Below, piece by piece: positions 9,655 to 52,291 of a stretch of 64,000 nucleotides of DNA. Below the pieces are notes generated by a model that made no database searches, was not told the DNA's origin, and saw nothing but the letters and a program-made list of their open reading frames with translations. The position numbers and the translations under genes are program-made. The stretch's first letter is position 1. Each line of letters opens with the position of its first letter. The stretch is from Halorubrum alkaliphilum (lineage in GTDB: Archaea; Halobacteriota; Halobacteria; Halobacteriales; Haloferacaceae), in NCBI RefSeq assembly GCF_017873815.1, contig NZ_JAGGKQ010000013.1, forward strand, positions 1 to 64,000, written 5' to 3'.

Positions 9655-10218
9655 TTATGAGACCCGCTTCCAGATCTGTGCGAGAATTAATAGGCCGAGC
9701 ACAGTGAAGCTCACCCCGATTACGACCCATTTTCCGAACGTAACGATCGGCACGAGATGTGAGAGCACAGGTACCTGATCTGGATAGAGAAACATCACGA
9801 CCGATGCCGAGGTGTTCTCCATGAAATCCAGCAGTACGGCCAGTAGTGGAAGTAACACGGAGTATTTGACGCGCGCGTTCGGTATTCCTTGCTGGAAGTA
9901 GGTGATACCGGTCCAGAGAAACCAGCCGTACGCGAGTGGCCAGACGATGTCGAACGTGAACCGCGAGCGGATGTAGTACCGGCGGCCTTCAGCGCCATAG
10001 GCGCTTGCCATGTCGTAGAGGTCTGCCGAAGAGTAGATGAATGAGCCGTCCGGTGTAGGGTTGTCGCCGAGGTATGCCGTATTTCGACTGGCTTCTTCGG
10101 GGAGAATGACGGTGAGAAATACGATGAACGTAGCCGTTGCAAGGCCGAGCATACGCCCGCTGGCGAGTGACTCCGAGATATCAACGAGTCGGTCACTCAG
10201 TTCAACGGCCCGTTGCAT
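9655..10218 (-). CDS. Four-helix integral membrane protein, unknown function
   Basis: The 187-residue protein shows four hydrophobic segments: around residues 25-42 (LGLATATFIVFLTVILP), 90-108, 120-140 (SVLLPLLAVLLDFMENTS) and 158-182. An Asp-Phe-Met-Glu-Asn motif lies at the end of the third segment. The first loop contains the extracellular-looking stretch between helices 1 and 2 with Tyr and Asp residues. I do not recognise the family. Its promoter region overlaps that of the divergent saccharopine dehydrogenase-like gene. Confidence 0.65.
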   Translation of the reverse strand: MQRAVELSDRLVDISESLASGRMLGLATATFIVFLTVILPEEASRNTAYLGDNPTPDGSFIYSSADLYDMASAYGAEGRRYYIRSRFTFDIVWPLAYGWFLWTGITYFQQGIPNARVKYSVLLPLLAVLLDFMENTSASVVMFLYPDQVPVLSHLVPIVTFGKWVVIGVSFTVLGLLILAQIWKRVS

Positions 10219-29084: not shown

Positions 29085-30490
29085 ATCCGACAACGTTGAC
29101 ACAGTCTCTCACCGATTGCAGGCTGGATATTCTACGCTCATCCACACCATTAAGTAAGTGTATTTACATAGGCTATGTATGGCGATTAAGGCCACACGCA
29201 CCTACGTTGGTTCCATCCAGAACCACCAACAGGTTTGTGATGGCCTTGATTCGCTCGGAGACTCCGCCTCGAAAATCTGGAACATCGCACGATGGACCGC
29301 TGACCGTATCTGGGACGCAACCGGCGAAATTCCCGATTCAGGAACGCTGAAATCGTACATGAAGAACCAGTCGTGCTGGAAAGACTTGAACGCACAATCC
29401 AGTCAGAAAGTCATTGAAGAACTTTCTGACGCTTTCCAGTCATGGTTCGATCTGCGACACAAGTTCAGCGAGGCGAATCCGCCCGGCTACCGCAAACACG
29501 GCGACAGCCGACCACGTTCCACGGTGACATTCAAAGAAGACGGGTTCAAACACGACCCTGAGAACAACCGGGTTCGACTCTCGAAAGGCTCGAATCTGAA
29601 AGAACACTTCTCGGATTTCCTGCTTTGCGAGTACCAGACTCGACCTGATGTTGATCTCTCGGAAGTCAACAGCGTACAGAACGTTCGTGCCGTCTGGAAC
29701 GGTGACGAATGGGAACTCCACTTTATCTGTAAAGTCGAGCTCGAATCTGCCGACACAGCAGGCGACGGTGTTGCGGGGATCGACCTCGGAATTACAAACA
29801 TCGCCACGATCGCCTTCCCCGACGAATACGTGTTGTACCCCGGAAACTCGCTCAAAGAAGACAAACACTACTTCACCAGAGCTGAGTACGACACCGAGGG
29901 AGAGAACGGCCCGTCAGAGCAGTCGATGTGGGCACGTCGGAAACTCTCCGAACGTGAGACACAGTACTACCATACGGTGACGGACGCCATCATCACGGAG
30001 TGCGTTGATCGCGGTGTTGGCACGCTCGCGGTGAGCTGGCCGGAAGACGTCCGAGAGTCAGACTGGGGCAAGACCGGGAACAAGAAGCTCCACTCGTGGG
30101 CGTTCGACCGGATCTACCAGTACCTCGCGTACAAAGGCGAGATGCGGGGTGTTGAGGTGCTGAAAGAGAACGAGTGGAACACCTCGAAAACGTGTTCACG
30201 ATGTGGAGACGACACGAAATCGAACCGTGTCGAACGTGGGCTGTACGTTTGCTCGTCGTGTGAGTTGGTAGCCAACGCGGATTGTAACGGAGCGGAGAAT
30301 ATGCGCCAGAAGATAACTCCGAGTCCTCACGGTGAGGATAGGAGTAACGGCTGTGTGGCACAGCCATCGACACACTTGTTCGACCGCGAGAGCGGGACGT
30401 TTCACACGAGAGAACAGGTCGTGTCGTAGACCAGCAAATATCCCAAATGCGGTACGGGAAGCCTCGCCGTTTACGGCGAGGAGGATGTCA
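29045..30490 (+). mobile_element. IS200/IS605-type element encoding only TnpB
   Basis: The element is bounded by imperfect palindromic ends typical of IS200/IS605 transposons: a stem TCCCGGCG/CGCCGGGA with TTTA loop at 29061-29080, and CCTCGCCG/CGGCGAGG with TTTA loop at 30462-30481, followed by AGGATGTCAC at the right boundary. There is no TnpA (Y1 transposase) gene, so it is a solo-TnpB (IS1341-type) element dependent on a transposase elsewhere. Exact boundaries are estimated from where flanking genes are disturbed. Confidence 0.75.
29179..30429 (+). CDS. tnpB: TnpB RNA-guided nuclease (IS200/IS605 family)
   Basis: The product is 416 residues from ATG 29179. The RuvC-like fold shows the first Asp in AGIDLGITNIATIA, a Glu-containing segment LAVSWPEDV, a zinc ribbon CSRCG...CSSC, and the last Asp in ADCNGAENM. 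These match TnpB proteins, which cut DNA guided by an omega RNA transcribed from the element's right end and help retain the transposon. The first and last acidic residues and the zinc cysteines are intact, so the protein may be active. Codon 29158 upstream in frame is not needed by the family's N-terminus. Confidence 0.9.
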   Translation: MAIKATRTYVGSIQNHQQVCDGLDSLGDSASKIWNIARWTADRIWDATGEIPDSGTLKSYMKNQSCWKDLNAQSSQKVIEELSDAFQSWFDLRHKFSEANPPGYRKHGDSRPRSTVTFKEDGFKHDPENNRVRLSKGSNLKEHFSDFLLCEYQTRPDVDLSEVNSVQNVRAVWNGDEWELHFICKVELESADTAGDGVAGIDLGITNIATIAFPDEYVLYPGNSLKEDKHYFTRAEYDTEGENGPSEQSMWARRKLSERETQYYHTVTDAIITECVDRGVGTLAVSWPEDVRESDWGKTGNKKLHSWAFDRIYQYLAYKGEMRGVEVLKENEWNTSKTCSRCGDDTKSNRVERGLYVCSSCELVANADCNGAENMRQKITPSPHGEDRSNGCVAQPSTHLFDRESGTFHTREQVVS

Positions 30491-31068: not shown

Positions 31069-31442
31069 CTCGTTCTCGTTTAGCCGCGGGGCACGTGTTC
31101 GGCGAGTACCTACAAGACCAGCGTGCGGAGAGACCGGACGAGAATCGCTGGGCTTGCGTCGCCATTGAACGCGAAAGTGTGACGCAATCCGGCGATCTCC
31201 GGAGACTCTCACCCGCATAACCCGGCTCCCACGCGGACTACCCGTCAGGGGCTGGGGAACACGGGAGTGCCGCCTGCTTTCGCCTAGTACTCGTTTCGCT
31301 CACAGCGTCACGCGAGTACGGCGACTGAGGCTCGCGGCAGTTTGGTCTGCGTTCGTTCCTGACAGTGGAACGAACAAGCGATTCCGTACGCGCTGAGCGT
31401 ACGAAGAGTCGCTACACACATCCCCCGCAGCGTTAGCTGCGG
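31069..31442. other. Run of strong inverted repeats before the tRNA array
   Basis: The 650 bases between the small antitoxin-like gene and the first tRNA contain no convincing gene but at least five perfect hairpins: CCGCGGC/GCCGCGG (31069-31089), GTACTCG/CGAGTAC (31287-31319), GTTCGTTCC/GGAACGAAC with a 7-base loop (31351-31375), CGTACGC/GCGTACG (31385-31403), CCGCAGC/GCTGCGG with GTTA loop (31425-31442). A TATA-like AATTTAATAC lies at about 30964. This suggests one or more structured RNAs leading into the array. Confidence 0.55.
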
Positions 31443-31450
31443 CTACGTCG

Positions 31451-31526
31451 AGCCCCGGAGTCTCCGTTGGCGAGGGACGCCGGACTTTGAATCCGGAGGT
31501 CGCCGGTTCGATTCCGGCCGGGGCGA
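31451..31526 (+). tRNA. tRNA-Gln (anticodon TTG), non-canonical
   Basis: Acceptor AGCCCCG pairs with CGGGGCG except at the end pair. The D-stem is five base pairs (GTCTC/GGGAC). Anticodon stem CCGGA/TCCGG holds loop CTTTGAA, giving TTG. T-arm GCCGG-TTCGATT-CCGGC is perfect. Position 8 is G instead of the near-universal T. First gene of the array; no encoded CCA. Confidence 0.7.
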
Positions 31527-31532
31527 CTGCAT

Positions 31533-31606
31533 GCCGACGTGGTGTAATCCGGCGAGCATACGGTCCTGTCACGGCCGTGATCCGGGTTCGAATCCCGGCG
31601 TCGGCG
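31533..31606 (+). tRNA. tRNA-Asp (GTC)
   Basis: Acceptor GCCGACG/CGTCGGC is perfect, followed by T8 G9. The anticodon stem CGGTC/GGCCG has loop CTGTCAC, anticodon GTC. The T-arm CCGGG-TTCGAAT-CCCGG is perfect and the discriminator is G, as in archaeal tRNA-Asp. Confidence 0.85.
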
Positions 31607-31854
31607 TGGACGCGTGGACAACCACGTGGGGATACCCATCGAGGTAGGCAGCCCGTTGGTGCGATCAGCTGGATCGTTCCTGCGATGCTGGGCCCGGCAG
31701 GGTCTGTAACCTACATGAGCCGGTGTGGTATTCCCGGGAGATCCCGAAGCACGCCCCCGCGATGAGACGCGCGATCACGACCACTCGGTCGAGGTTGCGC
31801 AGTTGGAAAGTCGTACAGATAGATAACCAACTGCCGAACGCTCGGCAGTCCCGT
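31607..31854. other. Gap inside the tRNA array, unassigned
   Basis: These 248 bases lie between tRNA-Asp and tRNA-Pro. They contain a D-arm-like GATCAGCTGGATC and the octamer CCATCGAG that recurs at about 33339 and 33544, but no T-arm or complete tRNA fold. No coding frame looks real. It may be a decayed tRNA or another structured RNA. Confidence 0.4.
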
Positions 31855-31927
31855 GAGCCGATGGTCCAGCGGACGACGATCTGTGCCTTGGGCGCACAGG
31901 ACCGAGGTTCGAATCCTCGTCGGCTCA
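31855..31927 (+). tRNA. tRNA-Pro (TGG)
   Basis: Acceptor GAGCCGA/TCGGCTC and T-arm CGAGG-TTCGAAT-CCTCG are perfect. Anticodon stem TGTGC/GCACA with loop CTTGGGC gives TGG. The D-stem is weak. Only four bases separate it from the next tRNA. Confidence 0.8.
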
Positions 31928-31931
31928 GTGT

Positions 31932-32018
31932 GCCGTGACTGGGTATTGGGGAACCCAGCGGCCTGCTACGCCGTAGCCGTCTGCTATCGGCCTCCCGGTT
32001 CGAATCCGGGTCGCGGAG
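31932..32018 (+). tRNA. tRNA-Ser (GCT), class II
   Basis: Acceptor GCCGTGA pairs with TCGCGGA with an end mismatch. D-stem GGGT/ACCC. Anticodon stem GCGGC/GCCGT with loop CTGCTAC gives GCT. The long variable arm (GCCG/CGGC) and perfect T-stem CCCGG/CCGGG fit tRNA-Ser. The 14 bases at its 5' end recur at 32177-32190 without the rest of a tRNA. Confidence 0.8.
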
Positions 32019-32020
32019 TC

Positions 32021-32161
32021 ATGACAACGAATGTCTGCCCCGCCTGCGAGGAGGAAGCGTTCCGTCACGTCCCACTCGGTGAAACAACGTCAATCGACAC
32101 GATTGGAAGCGTGAAAATCTGCGTCACCGGCGACGGCGCGTACTTCCACGGAACAAGGTAA
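32021..32161 (+). CDS. 46-residue protein inside the tRNA array
   Basis: The frame from ATG 32021 encodes 46 residues beginning MTTNVCPACEEEAF, with a CPxC knuckle, a later Cys, and a predicted strand-rich end. It starts two bases after tRNA-Ser(GCT) and lies entirely between tRNA genes, so it would be expressed from the processed tRNA transcript. I do not recognise it. The single CxxC could be half of a zinc site in a dimer. It might also be an accidental frame, though its composition resembles genuine haloarchaeal proteins. Confidence 0.4.
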   Translation: MTTNVCPACEEEAFRHVPLGETTSIDTIGSVKICVTGDGAYFHGTR

Positions 32162-32279
32162 CCGTCATCCATCCCTGCCGTGACTGGGTGCTGATGAGCG
32201 CATTCACCTCGAAAGAGAGAGTCAGAAAATGAGCGATGTGCGTGTTCCGGCGTCCCGGTGAGCAACGCGAGGCGGGCTC

Positions 32280-32297
32280 GTCGGAGCAAGCTCCGAC
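32280..32297. other. Perfect short hairpin between tRNA genes
   Basis: GTCGGAGC and GCTCCGAC are exact reverse complements separated by two bases, giving a stem of seven pairs with a four-base loop. It precedes tRNA-Ser(TGA) by seven bases. The surrounding gap (32162-32303) holds no gene that I can support. Confidence 0.4.
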
Positions 32298-32303
32298 GGT
32301 GAT

Positions 32304-32385
32304 AGTGAGACATGCGGATAGGCGACCGCGCTCGGTTTGAAACCGAGAGCTGCGAGGCTTCGGAGTTCGACTCTCCGTCTCACCG
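32304..32385 (+). tRNA. tRNA-Ser (TGA), class II
   Basis: GTGAGA/TCTCAC acceptor with a mismatched end pair. D-stem GCGG/CCGC. Anticodon stem CTCGG/CCGAG with loop TTTGAAA gives TGA. A long variable region and T-arm CGGAG-TTCGACT-CTCCG follow, with G discriminator as in archaeal Ser tRNAs. Confidence 0.8.
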
Positions 32386-32387
32386 TT

Positions 32388-32473
32388 GGCGGGATTTCCC
32401 TAGCTTGGTCAAGGGACTGCGCTGGAACCGCAGCGTCCGCGAGGACACGAGTGTTCAAATCGCTCTCCCGCCG
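32388..32473 (+). tRNA. tRNA-Ser (GGA), class II
   Basis: Acceptor GGCGGGA/TCCCGCC is perfect. D-stem CCCT/AGGG. Anticodon stem CTGCG/CGCAG with loop CTGGAAC gives GGA. Variable arm GTCC/GGAC, T-loop TTCAAAT, discriminator G. Two bases separate it from the previous gene. Confidence 0.82.
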
Positions 32474-32520
32474 CTGCGTGCCGAAGTGATTCGCAGAGAC
32501 GTTGGCGATTCTCGAATTGC

Positions 32521-32602
32521 GCCGCCATGCCAGAGTGGTCGAACGGGCACGGTTGAGGGCCGTGTGGTTAGTCCTTCCCAGGTTCGAATCCTGGTGGCGG
32601 CA
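32521..32602 (+). tRNA. tRNA-Leu (GAG), class II
   Basis: Acceptor GCCGCCA/TGGCGGC and T-arm CCAGG-TTCGAAT-CCTGG are perfect. Anticodon stem CACGG/CCGTG with loop TTGAGGG gives GAG. The variable region is long and the discriminator is A, as expected for Leu. Confidence 0.85.
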
Positions 32603-32644
32603 TCCGGCCATCGTGCCGGTAGACAAGTCCCGATCCAACGTTAC

Positions 32645-32727
32645 GTCGCCATACCCCAGTGGTCAACGGGAAGTGGCTCAGAACCGTTAGCGTAGGTCCT
32701 CCCGAGGTTCGAATTCTCGCGGCGACA
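32645..32727 (+). tRNA. tRNA-Leu (CAG), class II
   Basis: Acceptor GTCGCC/GGCGAC with a mismatch at the seventh pair. Anticodon stem AGTGG/CCGTT (two wobbles) with loop CTCAGAA gives CAG. Long variable region, T-stem CGAGG/TCTCG, discriminator A. Confidence 0.78.
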
Positions 32728-32730
32728 GTT

Positions 32731-32802
32731 CTCCCTGTGGTCTAACGGCTACGATACCTCCCTGTAGAAGAGGAGACGCACGTTCGAGTCGTGCCGGGGA
32801 GA
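32731..32802 (+). tRNA. tRNA-Tyr (GTA)
   Basis: Acceptor CTCCCTG/CGGGGAG begins with the C1-G72 pair diagnostic of archaeal tRNA-Tyr. Loop CTGTAGA gives GTA; the innermost anticodon-stem pair is a C.A mismatch. T-arm GCACG-TTCGAGT-CGTGC is perfect; discriminator A. Confidence 0.78.
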
Positions 32803-32806
32803 CTGC

Positions 32807-32933
32807 GGGACGGTGGAAGAGCCCGGCATTCACACACTCTCGCCGAATTTTTACCGGAGACCCGGTGCGACGGAGAGAGTTCCTTCATCTCACTTGTAAC
32901 GAGAACACGCAGGTTCGAATCCTGCCCGTCCCA
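32807..32933 (+). tRNA. tRNA-Thr (TGT) with large insertion in the D-loop
   Basis: Acceptor GGGACGG/CCGTCCC and T-arm GCAGG-TTCGAAT-CCTGC are perfect. Anticodon stem TCTCA/CGAGA (one mismatch) with loop CTTGTAA gives TGT. D-stem GAAG (32816-32819) pairs with CTTC (32883-32886), but about 63 bases lie between them where roughly ten are normal. The insert contains ACCGG/CCGGT and CTCTC/GAGAG pairings, so it may be an intron or an extra domain. Confidence 0.7.
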
Positions 32934-32967
32934 CTGGCCGATGACCCTTCGCAGGCGAGGCCAATTC

Positions 32968-33040
32968 GCTCCAGTGGAGTAGCGGCCAAACTCACGGCCC
33001 TCTCACGGCCGAACCCCCGGTTCGAATCCGGGCTGGAGCA
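32968..33040 (+). tRNA. tRNA-Glu (CTC)
   Basis: Acceptor GCTCCAG/CTGGAGC, D-stem GAGT/ACTC, anticodon stem CGGCC/GGCCG with loop CTCTCAC (CTC), and T-arm CCCGG-TTCGAAT-CCGGG are all perfect. The sequence differs clearly from the tRNA-Glu(CTC) fragment at 39592-39636. Confidence 0.88.
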
Positions 33041-33043
33041 TGT

Positions 33044-33116
33044 GGGCCCGGAGCCTATGCGGACAGGCAAGCGGCCTTTAACCGCAGAATAGCGGGTTCG
33101 AATCCCGTCGGGCCCT
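33044..33116 (+). tRNA. tRNA-Lys (TTT), non-canonical
   Basis: Acceptor GGGCCCG/CGGGCCC is perfect and its GGGCC start is typical of tRNA-Lys. D-stem GCCT/AGGC. The anticodon loop CCTTTAA gives TTT but has C at position 33 instead of T, and position 8 is G. A register shift would read TTA, but the short variable loop argues against Leu. Confidence 0.68.
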
Positions 33117-33122
33117 CTTGAT

Positions 33123-33196
33123 GCCTGGGAGGCCCCCCTGGTGGGGGTGCCGGGCTGTTACCCTGACCGTGGAAGGTTCGAGTCCTTCTCCAGGCG
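33123..33196 (+). tRNA. tRNA-Asn (GTT)
   Basis: Acceptor GCCTGGG/TCCAGGC (one wobble), anticodon loop CTGTTAC giving GTT on stem CCGGG/CCTGA, T-arm GAAGG-TTCGAGT-CCTTC, discriminator G. The D-region forms an unusual C-run/G-run hairpin (CCCCCC/GGGGG). Confidence 0.75.
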
Positions 33197-33217
33197 CTCG
33201 GAACCAGTAGCAGTGAT

Positions 33218-33293
33218 GCTCCCGGAGTCTCCGTTGGCGAGAGACGCCAGCCTTTCAAGCTGGAGGTCGGGGGTTCGATTCCCCTCGGGAGCA
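33218..33293 (+). tRNA. tRNA-Glu (TTC), non-canonical
   Basis: Acceptor GCTCCCG/CGGGAGC is perfect. Five-pair D-stem GTCTC/GAGAC, anticodon stem CCAGC/GCTGG with loop CTTTCAA giving TTC. G occupies position 8. Its D-arm is nearly identical to the tRNA-Gln that opens the array, so one probably derives from the other. Confidence 0.78.
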
Positions 33294-33455
33294 CTCGGGA
33301 ACTGGCAGTGGACACCGACGCTCTGCGTCGTACCATCGAGGTAACGACGTAGACCGGTGACGCGTCCGCTGTCGGTTCCCATAGCGTGCAGTCGTCGAGA
33401 CGGTGCGTTCCTTCAGCCCGCAAGGCACACCGGGAGTCATAGCCCGTCGCGCCGT

Positions 33456-33538
33456 CAGTTTCCCGACCGCACGTGGCGACCGTCGAGTCGAGGCGTTGCT
33501 TCGCCAGGAACTCACAGGTTCAAATCCTGTCGGTGGCC
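33456..33538 (+). ncRNA. tRNA-like RNA A, no anticodon arm recognised
   Basis: The 3' part has T-arm ACAGG-TTCAAAT-CCTGT and acceptor strand CGGTGGC. GCGACCG at 33476-33482 pairs with it with one mismatch. Between them only one hairpin fits: GAGT/ACTC enclosing GGCG-TTGCTT-CGCC, directly followed by the T-stem. The order of blocks (CAGTTTCCC, CGTGGC, CCGTC, CTTCGCC, T-arm, CGGTGG) is shared with the sequence at 33605-33702. It could be a Y-RNA-like molecule, a decayed tRNA, or the 3' exon of a split or intron-bearing tRNA. Confidence 0.45.
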
Positions 33539-33604
33539 CCGTCCATCGAGAACATCCCGGACAAAGAGAGCACGAGGGTACTCTCGACACCGGATCCGCC
33601 TCGA

Positions 33605-33702
33605 CAGTTTCCCAGTCGCCATCACTCATCCCGTGGCCGTCAAGTTGGAGCCATCCTTCGCCTCTGGAGCCAGAAGTCTGGGTTCGAATCCCGGCGGTGG
33701 AA
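33605..33702 (+). ncRNA. tRNA-like RNA B, paralogue of A
   Basis: It shares CAGTTTCCC, CGTGGC, CGTC-AGT, CTTCGCC and the T-arm/acceptor block with A. T-arm CTGGG-TTCGAAT-CCCGG is intact and the acceptor strand is CGGTGGA. TCCTTCG (33654-33660) pairs with it imperfectly; only a small TCTG-GAGC-CAGA hairpin lies between. No anticodon arm is recognisable. CGGTGGAA also pairs perfectly with TTCCACCG just downstream. Confidence 0.45.
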
Positions 33703-33710
33703 TCCGGTCT

Positions 33711-33755
33711 TCCACCGTAGTGTAACCAGGTAGCACGCTGTTCCGGCTCCAGCAG
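33711..33755 (+). pseudogene. Isolated 5' half of a tRNA
   Basis: TCCACCG, T8 A9, D-arm GTGT-AACCAGGTA-GCAC and the start of an anticodon stem are present, but no T-arm or matching acceptor strand follows. The exact complement of its acceptor, CGGTGGA, lies upstream at 33695-33701. GGCTCCAG at 33745-33752 is complementary to CTGGAGCC at 33664-33671. It is a remnant or one half of a rearranged gene. Confidence 0.45.
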
Positions 33756-33773
33756 TTTTCCGGCCACATCCTT

Positions 33774-33848
33774 GTCTCCGTAGCTCAGCCAGGACAGAGC
33801 ACCGGCCTTCGAAGCCGAGTGTCGCACGTTCGAATCGTGCCGGAGACG
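33774..33848 (+). tRNA. tRNA-Arg (TCG)
   Basis: Acceptor GTCTCCG/CGGAGAC, D-arm GCTC-AGCCAGGACA-GAGC, anticodon stem CCGGC/GCCGA with loop CTTCGAA (TCG), and T-arm GCACG-TTCGAAT-CGTGC. It is the most regular tRNA of the array and the last before the Ro-type gene. Confidence 0.88.
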
Positions 33849-33851
33849 TTC

Positions 33852-33911
33852 GCTGCTTGCATCCGTGTGAGCAGCACCGGTATCGGAGTCGCCTGTTGCG
33901 GCTCCGAGTGA
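33852..33911. other. Two hairpins between tRNA-Arg and the Ro-type gene
   Basis: GCTGCT and AGCAGC pair across a 12-base loop (33852-33875). CGGAGTCGC and GCGGCTCCG pair (one wobble) across a short loop just before the start codon. No TATA-like box is seen here, so they are more likely processing or leader structures than a promoter. Confidence 0.4.
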
Positions 33912-33915
33912 TAGT

Positions 33916-35445
33916 ATGGAATTCAACAAGCCAAAGCAAACGGTCGCGGAGGCAACGCGAACCACCAACTACGAAGGTGGAGAAGCATTCGGGCCTACCG
34001 ACCCTCGACTCGCACTGTACAAGCGCACGATCAACCAGCTGCTGGAGAACTCGTTCTACGAAACCGATGACGAGCAACTCGCCGCTGTCGTCCAGCGATT
34101 CGACGCCGCCGCAGACGAGGATCCGGAGTTCGTCCTGAAGCTCGCCGCGTACGCGCGACAGGAACTCTACTTGCGGGACATCCCACAGGTCCTGCTCGTG
34201 CTGGCAGCCAACGACGACCGATTCAAGGATGACTCCCCCAAGTCGCTCATCCGCGAGTGGGCCCCGGCGATCATCCAGCGGATGGACGAGACGGCCACCG
34301 CGCTCGCCATCCACGACCAGCTCTTCGGCGGGACTGCACCGTGGCCGCTTCGACGCGGTATCGAAGACGCGCTCGTCTCGATGGCCGACGCTTACACGCT
34401 GGGAAAGTACGAACTGTCGCGGCGTGAGGTGACGCTGCACGACGTGTTCAACCGCGTCCACCCCACGCCCGTCGACACCGACCAAGAGGTGCTGTTCGAG
34501 CGATTCATGCGCGGCGATCTCGACGACTATCCCGACGTCGAACCGTTGCCGTCGCCCAACACCTGGGAGACGGTTATCTCCGAGCGCGGCAACACCCGAG
34601 ACGCGTGGGAGACGCTCATCGAGGACGACACGTACTCGCTGCCGATCTTCGCGTCGATCCGGAACCTCCGGAATATGCTCGAAGCCGGTGTCGACGAGGA
34701 CACCATCGTGGAACACCTCGACATAGAGGCGGTGCGGTACGCGCCGCTGTACCCGTTCCGGTACTACCAGGCGTACACCGCGCTCCAGAATGCGGACGTC
34801 CAAGCACCGGCGGTCGAGCGGTGGCTGGAGGACGCAATTGACGCCGCTGTCGAGACGGTGCCCGACGGACTCGGAGATACGCTCGTCGCCGTGGACCTCT
34901 CGGGGTCGATGGACACGGCGCTGTCCAAGAACAGCACGCTCAGGTTAAAAGAGATCGGCGCGTTATTCGGTGCGATCCTGGCCGACCAAGGTGCAGAGGT
35001 CGGCGGGTTCGGTGACGACTTCCAGACCATTCCGATGCACGTGGACACGCCAGTACTGCAGCGTCAAGATGCGGTGCTGGCCATCGACGAGGATGTCGGG
35101 AACTCGACGAACGGCTGGAAGGCGTTCGAGTATCTCCGCGACCGTGAAGAACCCGTTGAGCGAGTCGTCGTCTTCACCGACATGCAGATCTGGGACAGCA
35201 CACCATTCACGGCGCGCGACAACCAGACGGTCAAGGCAGCGTTCGATGCGTATCGAGACGAGGTCTCCACGGACACCTCGCTTTATCTCGTCGATCTTGC
35301 ATCCTACGGCGACCTCGTGACCCCGGAAGGCTACGAGAACGTCTACAACGTCTCCGGGTGGTCGGAGAACGTCTTCTCGTTCATCGAACACGCCGAAAAC
35401 CCGAAGCAGGTCATCGATGCAATCGAGGCCTTCGAGTCTGCATAG
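33916..35445 (+). CDS. rsr: Ro60/Rsr-like RNA-binding protein (TROVE + vWA)
   Basis: This 509-residue protein is close to the length of animal Ro60. Residues about 15-315 form an all-helical TROVE/HEAT-type ring (LALYKRTINQLLENSFY, FVLKLAAYARQELYLRDIPQ, LPIFASIRNLRNML). Residues about 320-500 form a von Willebrand A domain with the MIDAS motif DLSGSM at 327-332, a later Thr, and VVVFTDMQIWD. Ro proteins bind misfolded RNAs and tRNA-like Y RNAs in the ring and work with RNA-processing nucleases; in bacteria they often sit with RNA-repair genes. No RtcB ligase lies in this window. The gene follows tRNA-Arg by 67 bases holding two hairpins and precedes tRNA-Gly, so it is probably co-transcribed with the tRNA array. 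Confidence 0.92.
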   Translation: MEFNKPKQTVAEATRTTNYEGGEAFGPTDPRLALYKRTINQLLENSFYETDDEQLAAVVQRFDAAADEDPEFVLKLAAYARQELYLRDIPQVLLVLAANDDRFKDDSPKSLIREWAPAIIQRMDETATALAIHDQLFGGTAPWPLRRGIEDALVSMADAYTLGKYELSRREVTLHDVFNRVHPTPVDTDQEVLFERFMRGDLDDYPDVEPLPSPNTWETVISERGNTRDAWETLIEDDTYSLPIFASIRNLRNMLEAGVDEDTIVEHLDIEAVRYAPLYPFRYYQAYTALQNADVQAPAVERWLEDAIDAAVETVPDGLGDTLVAVDLSGSMDTALSKNSTLRLKEIGALFGAILADQGAEVGGFGDDFQTIPMHVDTPVLQRQDAVLAIDEDVGNSTNGWKAFEYLRDREEPVERVVVFTDMQIWDSTPFTARDNQTVKAAFDAYRDEVSTDTSLYLVDLASYGDLVTPEGYENVYNVSGWSENVFSFIEHAENPKQVIDAIEAFESA

Positions 35446-35472
35446 CGTTGTCCTCTCATCTTTCTCCGTCAA

Positions 35473-35545
35473 GCGCGAGTAGTGTAGTTCGGTATCACGC
35501 GGTCGTGCCACGACCGAGACGGGCGTTCGAATCACCCCTCGCGCA
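35473..35545 (+). tRNA. tRNA-Gly (GCC)
   Basis: Acceptor GCGCGAG/CTCGCGC is perfect. D-arm GTG/CAC, anticodon stem CGGTC/GACCG with loop GTGCCAC (GCC). The T-stem GGGCG/CACCC has one mismatch. It lies 28 bases after the Ro-type gene. Confidence 0.82.
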
Positions 35546-35605
35546 CTCGGAGCGTAGCTCGTGAATCAGATAGCCCGAGCGACGCTCTTCAACAGAGGTG
35601 ACATC

Positions 35606-35899
35606 ATGGCAATCTCCAATGACAACGACCCCGAGCCGACGACGACTGCTGTCGTCACGATCCGCATCCCATGTGGCGCAGACAGCGATCTCGTCACCGA
35701 CGCCGAAGAGCGCCTCTCGCGTCCCGACGACATCGATACCGGCACGGTTGACGAGATGCGCGGTATCGCTCCGAACCTTTCGGCAACAACTATCACCGTC
35801 GGCATCACCATTCGCTGGACCACGACAATGACCGATTCGCAGGTGAGGAGACGGATCGTCGAGGTCCCTGGCCTTGAGTCGATCAAGCGTATCGGATGA
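35606..35899 (+). CDS. Small hypothetical protein downstream of Ro-type gene
   Basis: The product is 97 residues from ATG 35606, which has a GAGGTGA ribosome-binding site seven bases upstream; this is why the longer frame from 35561 was rejected. It is predicted to be a small alpha/beta protein with strands AVVTIRIPCG and ATTITVGITIRW and a C-terminal helix ending in VPGLESIKRIG. No family is recognised. It is the last gene of the tRNA/Ro block on the same strand and may belong to the same function. Confidence 0.6.
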   Translation: MAISNDNDPEPTTTAVVTIRIPCGADSDLVTDAEERLSRPDDIDTGTVDEMRGIAPNLSATTITVGITIRWTTTMTDSQVRRRIVEVPGLESIKRIG

Positions 35900-38461: not shown

Positions 38462-38555
38462 TCTGCAGTCAGATGCGTAGCTGTCGGTGGGTGACGTGCC
38501 TGACTGTATTCACCAGTCGTTCGACCCAGCTCGTCGCACAGGGGTGGCTGCTGTG

Positions 38556-39287
38556 ATGCACGCAGAGGTGTCAACGAACGTGTTTCGGGAGACGTTCCAG
38601 CCAGTGATGGTGTTCGACGGCGAAGCCCACATCGACATCACGGCAGATGCGGTGACGATCCATGCGACTGACGAAGCACGTGCCGCTTGGGTCGATATTC
38701 ACATGCCACACTCAGCGTTTGAATTCCTACAGGCGGGTGATACACCCGCATCCACAGCCCTCGATGTGAACGGCCTGCTGGATGTTCATGATATTCCATC
38801 GGTGGACACGATCACGATGGCAATACCGACCACGAATGAAGTTCAAATCACTGCGAAGCAACTGCTGTACCGGACAGGCACGATTCGAGAGGTGAATGTT
38901 CCGGAGATTTGGTTACGAACAGAGCCGGGCACGGCGGTCGATATCACAACCTCACCTGCCATGCTGTCGAAAGTCATTGACCTCGCTGTAGACATGACTG
39001 ACCGCGTCGAGTTCGGCACGACATCGACTGAGAGATTGGCTTACATAGCGGGGACAGGAGACACGGACGACGTGCGAGTGGACGTCCCACTATCGAATAC
39101 CTGTGAGGTACCGGAGTCGCGCGTTGAAGAGTCGTACTCATTGACGTACTTGGACCCGATTCAACAGCGGATTCCCGCTGACACACCAGTTCGACTCCAA
39201 TGGGGTCCAGGTAGTCCGCTGCGGGTCGAATATCCGATTGCGGCCGGACACGCAACAGTCACATACACGATCCGGCCTAACGCGTGA
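38556..39287 (+). CDS. Divergent PCNA-like sliding clamp
   Basis: The product is 243 residues from ATG 38556, the standard size for a PCNA protomer. The two-domain clamp pattern is visible: an N-terminal FRETFQPVMVFDGEAHIDI strand set, a linker-like stretch, TDDVRVDVPLS, then YSLTYLDPIQQRIPADTPVRLQWG and a terminal GHATVTYTIRP that follows the usual ending of archaeal PCNA. It is far from the housekeeping PCNA, lacking its acidic C-terminal tail. Haloviruses and plasmids carry such clamps for their own replication. Position next to the tRNA-Glu junction suggests it belongs to the integrated element. No polymerase gene is adjacent. Confidence 0.78.
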   Translation: MHAEVSTNVFRETFQPVMVFDGEAHIDITADAVTIHATDEARAAWVDIHMPHSAFEFLQAGDTPASTALDVNGLLDVHDIPSVDTITMAIPTTNEVQITAKQLLYRTGTIREVNVPEIWLRTEPGTAVDITTSPAMLSKVIDLAVDMTDRVEFGTTSTERLAYIAGTGDTDDVRVDVPLSNTCEVPESRVEESYSLTYLDPIQQRIPADTPVRLQWGPGSPLRVEYPIAAGHATVTYTIRPNA

Positions 39288-52220: not shown

Positions 52221-52291
52221 GGGACCGTGGGGTAGTGGTATCCTATGCGGATGGGGTCCGTATGACCTGAGTTCGACTCTCAGCGGTCCCA
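52221..52291 (+). tRNA. tRNA-Pro (GGG)
   Basis: Acceptor GGGACCG/CGGTCCC and T-arm CTGAG-TTCGACT-CTCAG are perfect. Anticodon stem TGCGG/CCGTA with loop ATGGGGT gives GGG; T8 and discriminator A are normal. A regular chromosomal tRNA, unlike many in the array. Confidence 0.9.

Follow-up and report, generated by a model that had tools for sequence, protein, structure and literature searches.

Y RNAs are known from animals, bacteria and phages, and in 2014 Chen and colleagues reportedly placed them beside Ro genes in over 250 species of bacteria and phages. In bacteria, a Y RNA tethers the Ro protein Rsr to PNPase for the decay of structured RNA, while in Salmonella Rsr, the Y RNAs and RtcBA form one operon that is induced by tRNA damage; tRNA decay or nuclease inhibition have been proposed as their roles (PMC7790460; papers given by PMC number are cited here for the accessible part of their text). 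A review of jumbo phages describes a TROVE protein and its tRNA-like partner as an RNA repair platform (PMC7824862). In archaea, tRNA gene clusters were reported in 29 of 2481 genomes, with a TROVE gene in 20 of the 29 (Morgado & Vicente 2019, PMC6333295). A locus of this kind lies at 31-36 kb of the stretch of DNA analysed here (the window: 64,000 nucleotides (nt), positions 1 to 64,000 of contig NZ_JAGGKQ010000013.1 of Halorubrum alkaliphilum), in which the gene for a Ro-type protein is accompanied by an array of tRNA genes and by four RNA elements, Y-A to Y-D. These elements are very likely Y RNAs of this Ro protein, candidates whose expression and binding we infer. A sequence-only reading of the window had regarded the combination of Ro gene and tRNA array as an undescribed layout, which was mistaken: Ro in tRNA arrays is already published (PMC6333295). 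What appears to be new is that tRNA-like pieces adjoining Ro are candidate Y RNAs in archaea. No archaeal Y RNA was found in the literature among the matches listed, a search that did not extend to the key Y RNA papers, so that an earlier mention is possible.

The Ro gene and the tRNA genes of the locus are arranged as follows.

31451 to 33294, + strand: tRNA array Gln, Asp, Pro, Ser, Ser, Ser, Leu, Leu, Tyr, Glu, Lys, Asn, Glu (ARAGORN; order kept in relatives).
33773 to 33849, + strand: tRNA-Arg(UCG; tcg), directly 3' of Y-C and 5' of the Ro gene (ARAGORN, relatives).
33916 to 35445, + strand: Ro-type protein of 509 amino acids, TROVE and vWA domains with a DLSGS metal-site motif (Pfam, PDB and profile matches).
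35473 to 35546, + strand: tRNA-Gly(GCC), directly 3' of the Ro gene (ARAGORN, relatives).

Judged by its sequence, the open reading frame (ORF) at 33916-35445 is a complete Ro-type protein, and its function as a ring that binds RNA ends and Y RNAs is presumed from the family. It matches Pfam TROVE (PF05731) with 75.4 bits (E 6.8e-21, cut-off 23) and Pfam vWA_Ro60 with 27.3 bits, just under the cut-off of 27.7. Residues 14-495 match PDB 9l5y, a solved TROVE protein, at E 1.7e-32. A profile built from 13 Ro proteins of haloarchaea and haloviruses finds human RO60 (9nen, E 3.5e-8) and Deinococcus radiodurans Rsr (2nvo, E 5e-5), both over partial length, and the metal-site letters D-x-SGSM and TDMQ are invariant across all 13. 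The best 11 plasmid matches of the protein, at 75-89% identity, all come from Halobacteria, the class to which the host genome is assigned as well; Haloplanus rubicundus, Halosimplex aquaticum and Haloarcula halophila have Ro on plasmids. In the window ARAGORN reports 15 tRNA genes on the + strand between 31451 and 35546, about 3.7 per kb, and one further tRNA gene at 52221. The Rfam tRNA model reached its cut-off for ten of the 15 array tRNAs in a scan of the whole window and gave more than 29 bits for 13 of them when 31-36 kb was scanned; it also matched 32867-32933, a part of Y-D. With 15 tRNA genes in 4.1 kb, the array is an archaeal tRNA gene cluster in the sense of PMC6333295 (at least ten tRNA genes, at least two per kb). 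The sequence-only reading thus holds in its description of the locus: the complete TROVE and vWA protein between tRNA-Arg(tcg) and tRNA-Gly(gcc) is borne out by Pfam, the 9l5y match and ARAGORN, and the tRNA genes, tRNA-like pieces, small frames and hairpins of the array are all present, the tRNA genes numbering 15 by ARAGORN.

The candidate Y RNAs lie in the parts of the array that are tRNA-like and not called as tRNAs. T-arm motifs without an ARAGORN tRNA call occur upstream of Ro in 11 of 12 loci scanned, and in the twelfth (L078) they are covered by a spurious long ARAGORN call. Compared across loci, the ~480 nt between tRNA-Glu and tRNA-Arg consist of three tandem units with a common outer helix. 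Each unit runs from stem1 through a 4-nt loop (mostly TCGA), a 9-bp stem2 and a CTTC-containing stretch into a module, and returns through stem2', a 7-nt loop (mostly AGTTTTC or GGTTTTC) and stem1'. The units are tightly packed, with 2 nt between Y-A and Y-B, 12 nt between Y-B and Y-C, and 5 nt between Y-C and tRNA-Arg. A fourth element, the chimera Y-D, lies further upstream.

32807 to 32933, + strand: chimera Y-D, 127 nt, tRNA-shaped with the Ro stem as an extra arm (model R3, held-out relatives).
33386 to 33472, + strand: Y-A, with stem1 33386-33394/33464-33472 (one mismatch), loop TCGA, stem2 33399-33407/33448-33456 and loop AGTTTCC 33457-33463.
33475 to 33620, + strand: Y-B, with the Ro stem, a T-arm (33514-33530), an acceptor-like hairpin and a further hairpin (RNAalifold, covariation in alignment A2).
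33633 to 33767, + strand: Y-C, in which the Ro stem closes a circularly permuted tRNA-like module (Rfam YrlA, covariation in alignment A1, model R1).

The module of Y-C comprises a T-arm (33678-33694), an acceptor hairpin (33695-33717) and a D-arm (33720-33736); the fold of Y-A has a z-score of -3.0. Given no structure, RNAalifold recovered both stems, the T-arm, the acceptor hairpin and the D-arm of Y-C, and both stems and the T-arm of Y-B. Covariation is strong. Alignment A1 (Y-C; 19 of the 21 loci found, excluding the duplicate L037 and L070 with its insertion) is 98.0% paired and 14 of 32 pairs show double changes, compared with 6.5 after shuffling and 0-4 after sliding. Alignment A2 (Y-B; 19 of 40, with near-duplicates dropped, L067 outside and L071 without anchor) is likewise 98.0% paired, with double changes in 13 of 32 pairs against 5.8 shuffled and 2-3 slid. 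For both alignments none of 500 shuffles scored as high on four of five measures, and on pair types 3 and 7 of 500 did so. Copies of Y-C with a short module (L043 type) were placed in a third alignment of short elements, A3. A permuted tRNA gene, as occurs in other archaea, was considered for 33657-33767 and rejected; the closing stem runs on into stem1 and stem2, stem2 is completely changed in L068 and L070, the helix is also found on elements that have no module, and YrlA matches are present. An alternative inner partner of stem2' was countered from L068 and L070 only.

Three covariance models were used: R1 built from A3 (with Y-A in the training set and Y-C outside it), R2 built from Y-C copies only, and R3 for the chimera. 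In the host genome R1 finds Y-A, a training sequence, at 74.9 bits and the untrained Y-C at 47.2 bits (E 1.1e-8), with the next best match at 24.4 bits. R2 finds Y-C, and in addition Y-B at 53.1 bits (E 2.2e-11) and Y-A at 40.5 bits (E 8.1e-8), the next best being 21.7 bits. R1 was run over the same 391 Halobacteria genomes as the Ro search, in which a match over 1300 nt counted as full-length Ro. Full-length Ro occurs at 47 loci in 43 of the 391 genomes, and five more genomes hold Ro fragments; one of the 47 loci has an in-frame TAG, and a single TGA is reported for each of two. The expectation from the sequence alone that Ro proteins are rare in archaea is therefore only roughly right in this sample. 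R1 gave 98 matches at E <=1e-3, of which 92 share the strand of a full-length Ro and precede it by 32-884 nt. The genomes with an R1 match upstream of Ro are exactly the 43 with full-length Ro, and 46 of the 47 loci have such a match, the exception being a second copy with the in-frame TAG. There was no R1 match in the five genomes with Ro fragments only, and none below E 5e-4 in the 348 genomes without full-length Ro. At L079 and L080, which were outside the training and whose Ro is 51% identical, R1 matches just upstream of Ro at E 2.9e-7 and 6.6e-8. The idea that tRNA-like pieces of the array act as partners of Ro, as substrates or decoys, has thus gained ground: some of them look like Y RNAs by their shared stem motif, covariation, YrlA similarity and co-occurrence with Ro.

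The likeness to known Y RNAs extends beyond haloarchaea. The Rfam YrlA model (RF02553) aligns with 33657-33770 over its full length at 30.7 bits (E 9.2e-4 in 5 kb); since such scores fall under the gathering cut-off of 69, Y-C is not filed as a member of RF02553, and it shares with YrlA the Ro stem closing a permuted tRNA-like module and the position beside Ro. Among 20 one-kb haloarchaeal loci, eight reach E <=0.15 with YrlA and two are below 0.01, the best at 40.6 bits (L112). In the opposite direction, R2 matches adjoin five of eight bacterial or phage Ro genes, with E values of 9e-10 to 3.5e-6 under a rough calibration: Caulobacter phage (8.8e-10), Brevundimonas phage (2.5e-9), Streptomyces phage (5.6e-8), Deinococcus (1.5e-7) and Rhizobium (3.5e-6). 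The Rhizobium match coincides with an Rfam YrlA of 96.5 bits. The haloarchaeal-bacterial likeness is one of the tRNA-like module and the overall plan, as judged from sequence comparison, and not of loop letters. R2 also matches Ro loci on viral contigs (7 of 22 at E <=0.01, six of them above 33 bits) and, in another family of the same archaeal phylum, each of the five Ro loci (32.5 bits at one, 19-22 bits at four); scores of 19-23 bits (L131, L159-L162) are at a level that tRNA regions also reach. A separate observation concerns the viral contig L147, where 17 tRNA genes surround a Ro gene (32% identity) and R2 has no match at E 0.01.

The halovirus HGTV-1 offers a related arrangement. Here 32 of 34 tRNA matches lie at 42.6-53.4 kb, ~12 kb from Ro at 66 kb, and RtcB is encoded upstream of Ro. 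The descriptor (a search pattern for the paired unit) and R1 with filters on gave no match in HGTV-1, and Y-like stems were noticed by eye at L005:6945-7016 and 9898-9981. A neighbouring gene, L005:7022-7153, is annotated 'tRNA-Asp + intron' and scores 42.8 bits with R3; from its sequence it looks like a tRNA-Y chimera.

Several observations weigh against this assignment and have to be set beside it. The descriptor, which requires pairing, does speak for the shared motif, with 113 matches within 4 kb upstream of Ro (48 loci, nominal 192 kb) against 1 match in 435 kb of flanks and 4 in 913 kb on the opposite strand; the 113 matches are, however, largely homologous and not independent. In the window Y-C alone passes it, Y-A and Y-B being missed because each has a mismatch in stem1, and L050 has zero descriptor matches yet two by R1. 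A3 (29 of 44 short elements, near-duplicates dropped) shows double changes in 14 of 18 pairs and 97 double-change cells, but all its rows except that of the window were selected by this same descriptor. The anchors of A1 and A2 overlap stem1, so that stem2 and the inner helices provide the fair evidence. Many of the loci that R1 and R2 recovered had also served to train them, and the independent cases are L079, L080, HGTV-1 and the non-halobacterial loci. R1 is weak on Y-B (16.1 bits, E 0.47), weak on the stems of HGTV-1 even with filters off (18.8 and 17.9 bits), and gave nothing convincing in the bacterial loci; its six matches away from Ro (E 5.5e-4 to 9.8e-4) include five in genomes without full-length Ro. 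Of the eight Ro loci from bacteria or phages, three lack an R2 match. No haloarchaeal case reaches the YrlA gathering score, the YrlA scores are owed in part to general tRNA likeness, and the letters of the internal loops differ from Rfam YrlA. Finally, no match to RtcB or an RNA ligase was found among the 26 neighbouring ORFs scanned.

Two rival accounts of the same elements fare worse. That the orphan tRNA-like elements are decayed, functionless tRNA genes would agree with the tRNA pseudogenes found in almost all archaeal clusters (PMC6333295) and with the T-arms of several modules, but compensatory changes, conserved internal loops, retention in the most strongly reduced arrays, co-occurrence with Ro and YrlA matches in both directions make it highly improbable. 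Tandem repeated palindromes in a mobile, rearranging array might instead act as DNA hairpins in the recombination or integration of array units. The elements, however, lie on the sense strand of Ro, keep the letters of tRNA T- and D-loops, match an RNA family model and have similar counterparts adjoining Ro in viruses and bacteria, and the DNA-level explanation is accordingly the least credible of those considered.

The reading of the elements as Y RNAs is extended by Y-D, which combines tRNA and Ro arm in a different manner. Its acceptor stem GGGACGG/CCGTCCC is open at both ends and followed by discriminator A, with a T-arm at 32909-32925 and a weak anticodon-like arm. The Ro arm sits between the D-arm and the anticodon arm and is connected in reverse, the opposite topology to Y-A, Y-B and Y-C: stem2' (32837-32845), a loop of AGTTTTC type (32846-32852), stem1 (32853-32857/32862-32866), GCGA, stem2 (32871-32879) and TTCCTTC. 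The element is 94% conserved over 20 loci (alignment A4, 20 of 21 rows, L078 being excluded as too long), and its covariation is therefore only modest, with four of 34 pairs doubly changed; RNAalifold paired its D- and T-regions in a way unlike tRNA. In the L078 chimera the letters of the stems are wholly different and the loops are the same. R3 scores Y-D, its training sequence, at 154 bits in the host genome, where the next best match has 32.7 bits; it finds the held-out relatives L078-L080 at 70.6 to 34.4 bits, and in the other archaeal family three loci at 35-38 bits and a fourth at 29. A genuine tRNA-Cys in L074 reaches 33.4 bits, so that the R3 matches of 34-38 bits (L080, L079, L159, L160, L162) stand thinly above background. 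An intron-containing decoding tRNA at 32807-32933 was judged unlikely because the anticodon-like triplet varies between loci (UGU, UUU, UCU), and the anticodons called by ARAGORN change in relatives.

If confirmed, a Y RNA that combines the shape of a tRNA with an inserted Ro arm would be architecturally unusual. It is conceivable, if distinctly speculative, that the Ro-binding helix behaves as a mobile RNA module, which is attached to tRNA bodies in either of two opposite topologies, and that the tRNA-Y RNAs serve as lures or sensors in a conflict over tRNAs between element and host. The helix would form the foot of a permuted tRNA in the YrlA-like topology and an extra arm on an open-ended tRNA in the other. 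An open-ended tRNA-Y could be processed, CCA-tailed or even charged, and tRNA-Y RNAs might bring Ro to machinery that cuts, repairs or translates with tRNAs. A separate observation is that the tRNA-Arg before Ro in L051, L053, L055, L060, L061, L065 and L073 carries an extra ~55-60 nt with hairpins after its D-arm, at a site comparable to that of the Ro arm in Y-D.

The association of Ro with tRNA genes recurs, and a lack of recurrence in other genomes, one of the outcomes that the sequence-only reading had named as refuting, is excluded: at least four same-strand tRNA genes lie in the 8 kb upstream in 44 of the 47 Ro loci. The three remaining loci are L057 (contig end), L072 (the second copy with TAG) and L074 (no upstream tRNA). 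A tRNA-Arg is found at most 400 nt upstream in 35 of the 47 and a tRNA-Gly(gcc) shortly downstream in 37, and the order of the array is conserved among relatives while its size ranges from 31 tRNAs (L070) down to 5 (L056), with mainly Gln, Asp, Glu, Arg and Gly remaining in the reduced arrays. Since the order of array and Ro recurs across loci, the layout is not due to chance. Ro proteins that are 84-94% identical occur in different Halobacteria families and on plasmids, a distribution that we read, from sequence, as horizontal transfer. In the host genome the cassette is flanked by restriction and helicase-nuclease genes on one side and by GINS and primase replication genes on the other; the latter flank we take for chromosomal.

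It is possible, and about as tentative as the mobile-helix proposal, that the main purpose of the array is to replace tRNAs or to lure host anticodon nucleases, with the Y elements as uncuttable decoys that Ro stabilises instead of surveying RNA. Mobile-element tRNA arrays have been proposed as antidefense devices (PMC12803027), the tRNA-like domain of YrlA has been proposed as a competitive inhibitor of anticodon nuclease (PMC7790460), and the RtcB upstream of Ro in HGTV-1 would fit. Points against it, all of them compatible with a decoy role, are that reduced arrays of 5-9 tRNAs still have Ro and Y elements, that L074 has both with no upstream tRNA, and that the main tRNA cluster of HGTV-1 is remote from Ro. 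The last two points also count against an unlikely explanation in which Ro and the Y RNAs only quality-control the tRNAs of their own array during the processing of a long precursor and take no part in defence or stress; the short gaps of 2, 12 and 5 nt and the frequent tRNA-Arg and tRNA-Gly on either side of Ro count in its favour.

The locus is probably a Ro-Y RNA ribonucleoprotein module that is carried by a mobile element and set within a tRNA array; that the particle serves in tRNA-directed surveillance or repair is about as likely as not. According to this proposal, the array, the Y RNAs and Ro would be made from one precursor, with the flanking tRNAs as processing punctuation. Ro would bind the shared helix via its two internal loops, and Y RNAs released between tRNAs would load Ro and gate its ring. 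The tRNA-like modules may dock Ro to tRNA-handling enzymes by mimicry. The particle could then handle tRNAs that are damaged, cleaved or misfolded, along with other structured RNAs; damaged tRNAs would be removed or repaired, while the array would resupply lost tRNAs and the element could propagate under stress or host defence.

The known bacterial partner, PNPase, seems to be absent from the host. RNase PH-domain proteins (PNPase, exosome) gave no match in the host genome, which is 97.7% complete, in a search in which 12 of 14 control genomes were positive and Haloferax volcanii was not among these. The host genome encodes one RNB protein, and on a Thermaceae plasmid an RNB ribonuclease gene follows Ro. 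With no RNase PH match and one RNB ribonuclease, the system is unlikely to copy the PNPase machine directly, and an RNase R-type (RNB) enzyme is the best, if doubtful, candidate for the nuclease partner. The question raised by the lack of an RNase PH-domain match in the host is what Ro and Y RNAs do without PNPase. Confirmation of the RNAs would mean that archaea, too, have Ro-Y particles, and would give the TROVE gene of haloarchaeal tRNA clusters, so far unexplained, a partner and a testable job; the candidate Y RNAs make the role of these puzzling clusters testable.

Three further features of the locus are conserved.

31628 to 31753, + strand: conserved structured RNA, not Y-type, between tRNA-Asp and tRNA-Pro (alignment A6, RNAalifold).
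33885 to 33905, + strand: hairpin in the Ro leader, loop ~CTGTT, just 5' of TGATAG-ATG (pair counts in alignment A7).
35606 to 35899, + strand: small conserved protein, 97 amino acids from ATG, 3' of tRNA-Gly (protein cluster in 37 of 47 Ro loci).

The RNA at 31628-31753 has double changes in six of 27 RNAalifold pairs (A6 rows comprise 19 of 29 distinct copies), gave no Rfam match, and is retained even where arrays are strongly reduced (L046, L051, L063). The leader hairpin, found in most relatives, is possibly a control element for Ro translation; two of its seven predicted pairs are doubly changed in A7 (15 leaders from 36 distinct ones, excluding L074 and L078-L080, in which no hairpin is evident). 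The protein at 35606-35899 has no Pfam, NCBIfam, PHROG or PADLOC match. Other observations include a frame of 46 amino acids with a CxxC motif between two tRNA-Ser genes (32021-32161), also present in relatives; a match to the sense overlapping transcript sot0042 of Rfam where an IS605-type OrfB gene ends (30311-30482); and a divergent PCNA-like sliding clamp (38487-39287) that adjoins a DDE transposase and is followed by genes for GINS and the primase small subunit.

Compared with described systems, the locus is closest in layout to the TROVE-containing tRNA clusters of haloarchaea, which likewise have at least ten tRNAs, lie in some cases on plasmids and are noted to include pseudogenes and introns; Y RNA is unmentioned and no TROVE mechanism is proposed in the accessible text (PMC6333295). 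The Borg elements of Methanoperedens, compared by description only, are large extrachromosomal elements of archaea that encode TROVE proteins and 5-23 tRNAs, and no Y RNA is named in the accessible parts of PMC11208441 and PMC9605863. Halovirus HGTV-1 combines a tRNA cluster, RtcB and a TROVE protein (protein 129) that is 44% identical to Ro, with a Y-like stem directly upstream and a tRNA-Y chimera; it differs in that the tRNA cluster is apart from Ro and the Y-like stems are weak with R1. The bacterial YrlA/Rsr systems (RF02553; Salmonella rsr-yrlBA-rtcBA, Deinococcus) share the position beside Ro, the two-helix stem with an asymmetric internal loop and the permuted tRNA-like module. They too can have more than one element per locus, as in Rhizobium L106, where one YrlA match has 96.5 bits and another, at 63.0 bits, falls short of the cut-off. 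Unlike the bacterial system, the locus described here has no RtcB match among the 26 neighbouring ORFs scanned, and no RNase PH-domain protein was found in its host. The haloarchaeal elements are distinguished from bacterial YrlA by their archaeal origin, their TCGA and A/G-GTTTTC loops, scores under the Rfam cut-off and a location inside a tRNA array, and at least one copy in the set appears to be an open-ended tRNA that carries the Ro stem as an arm.

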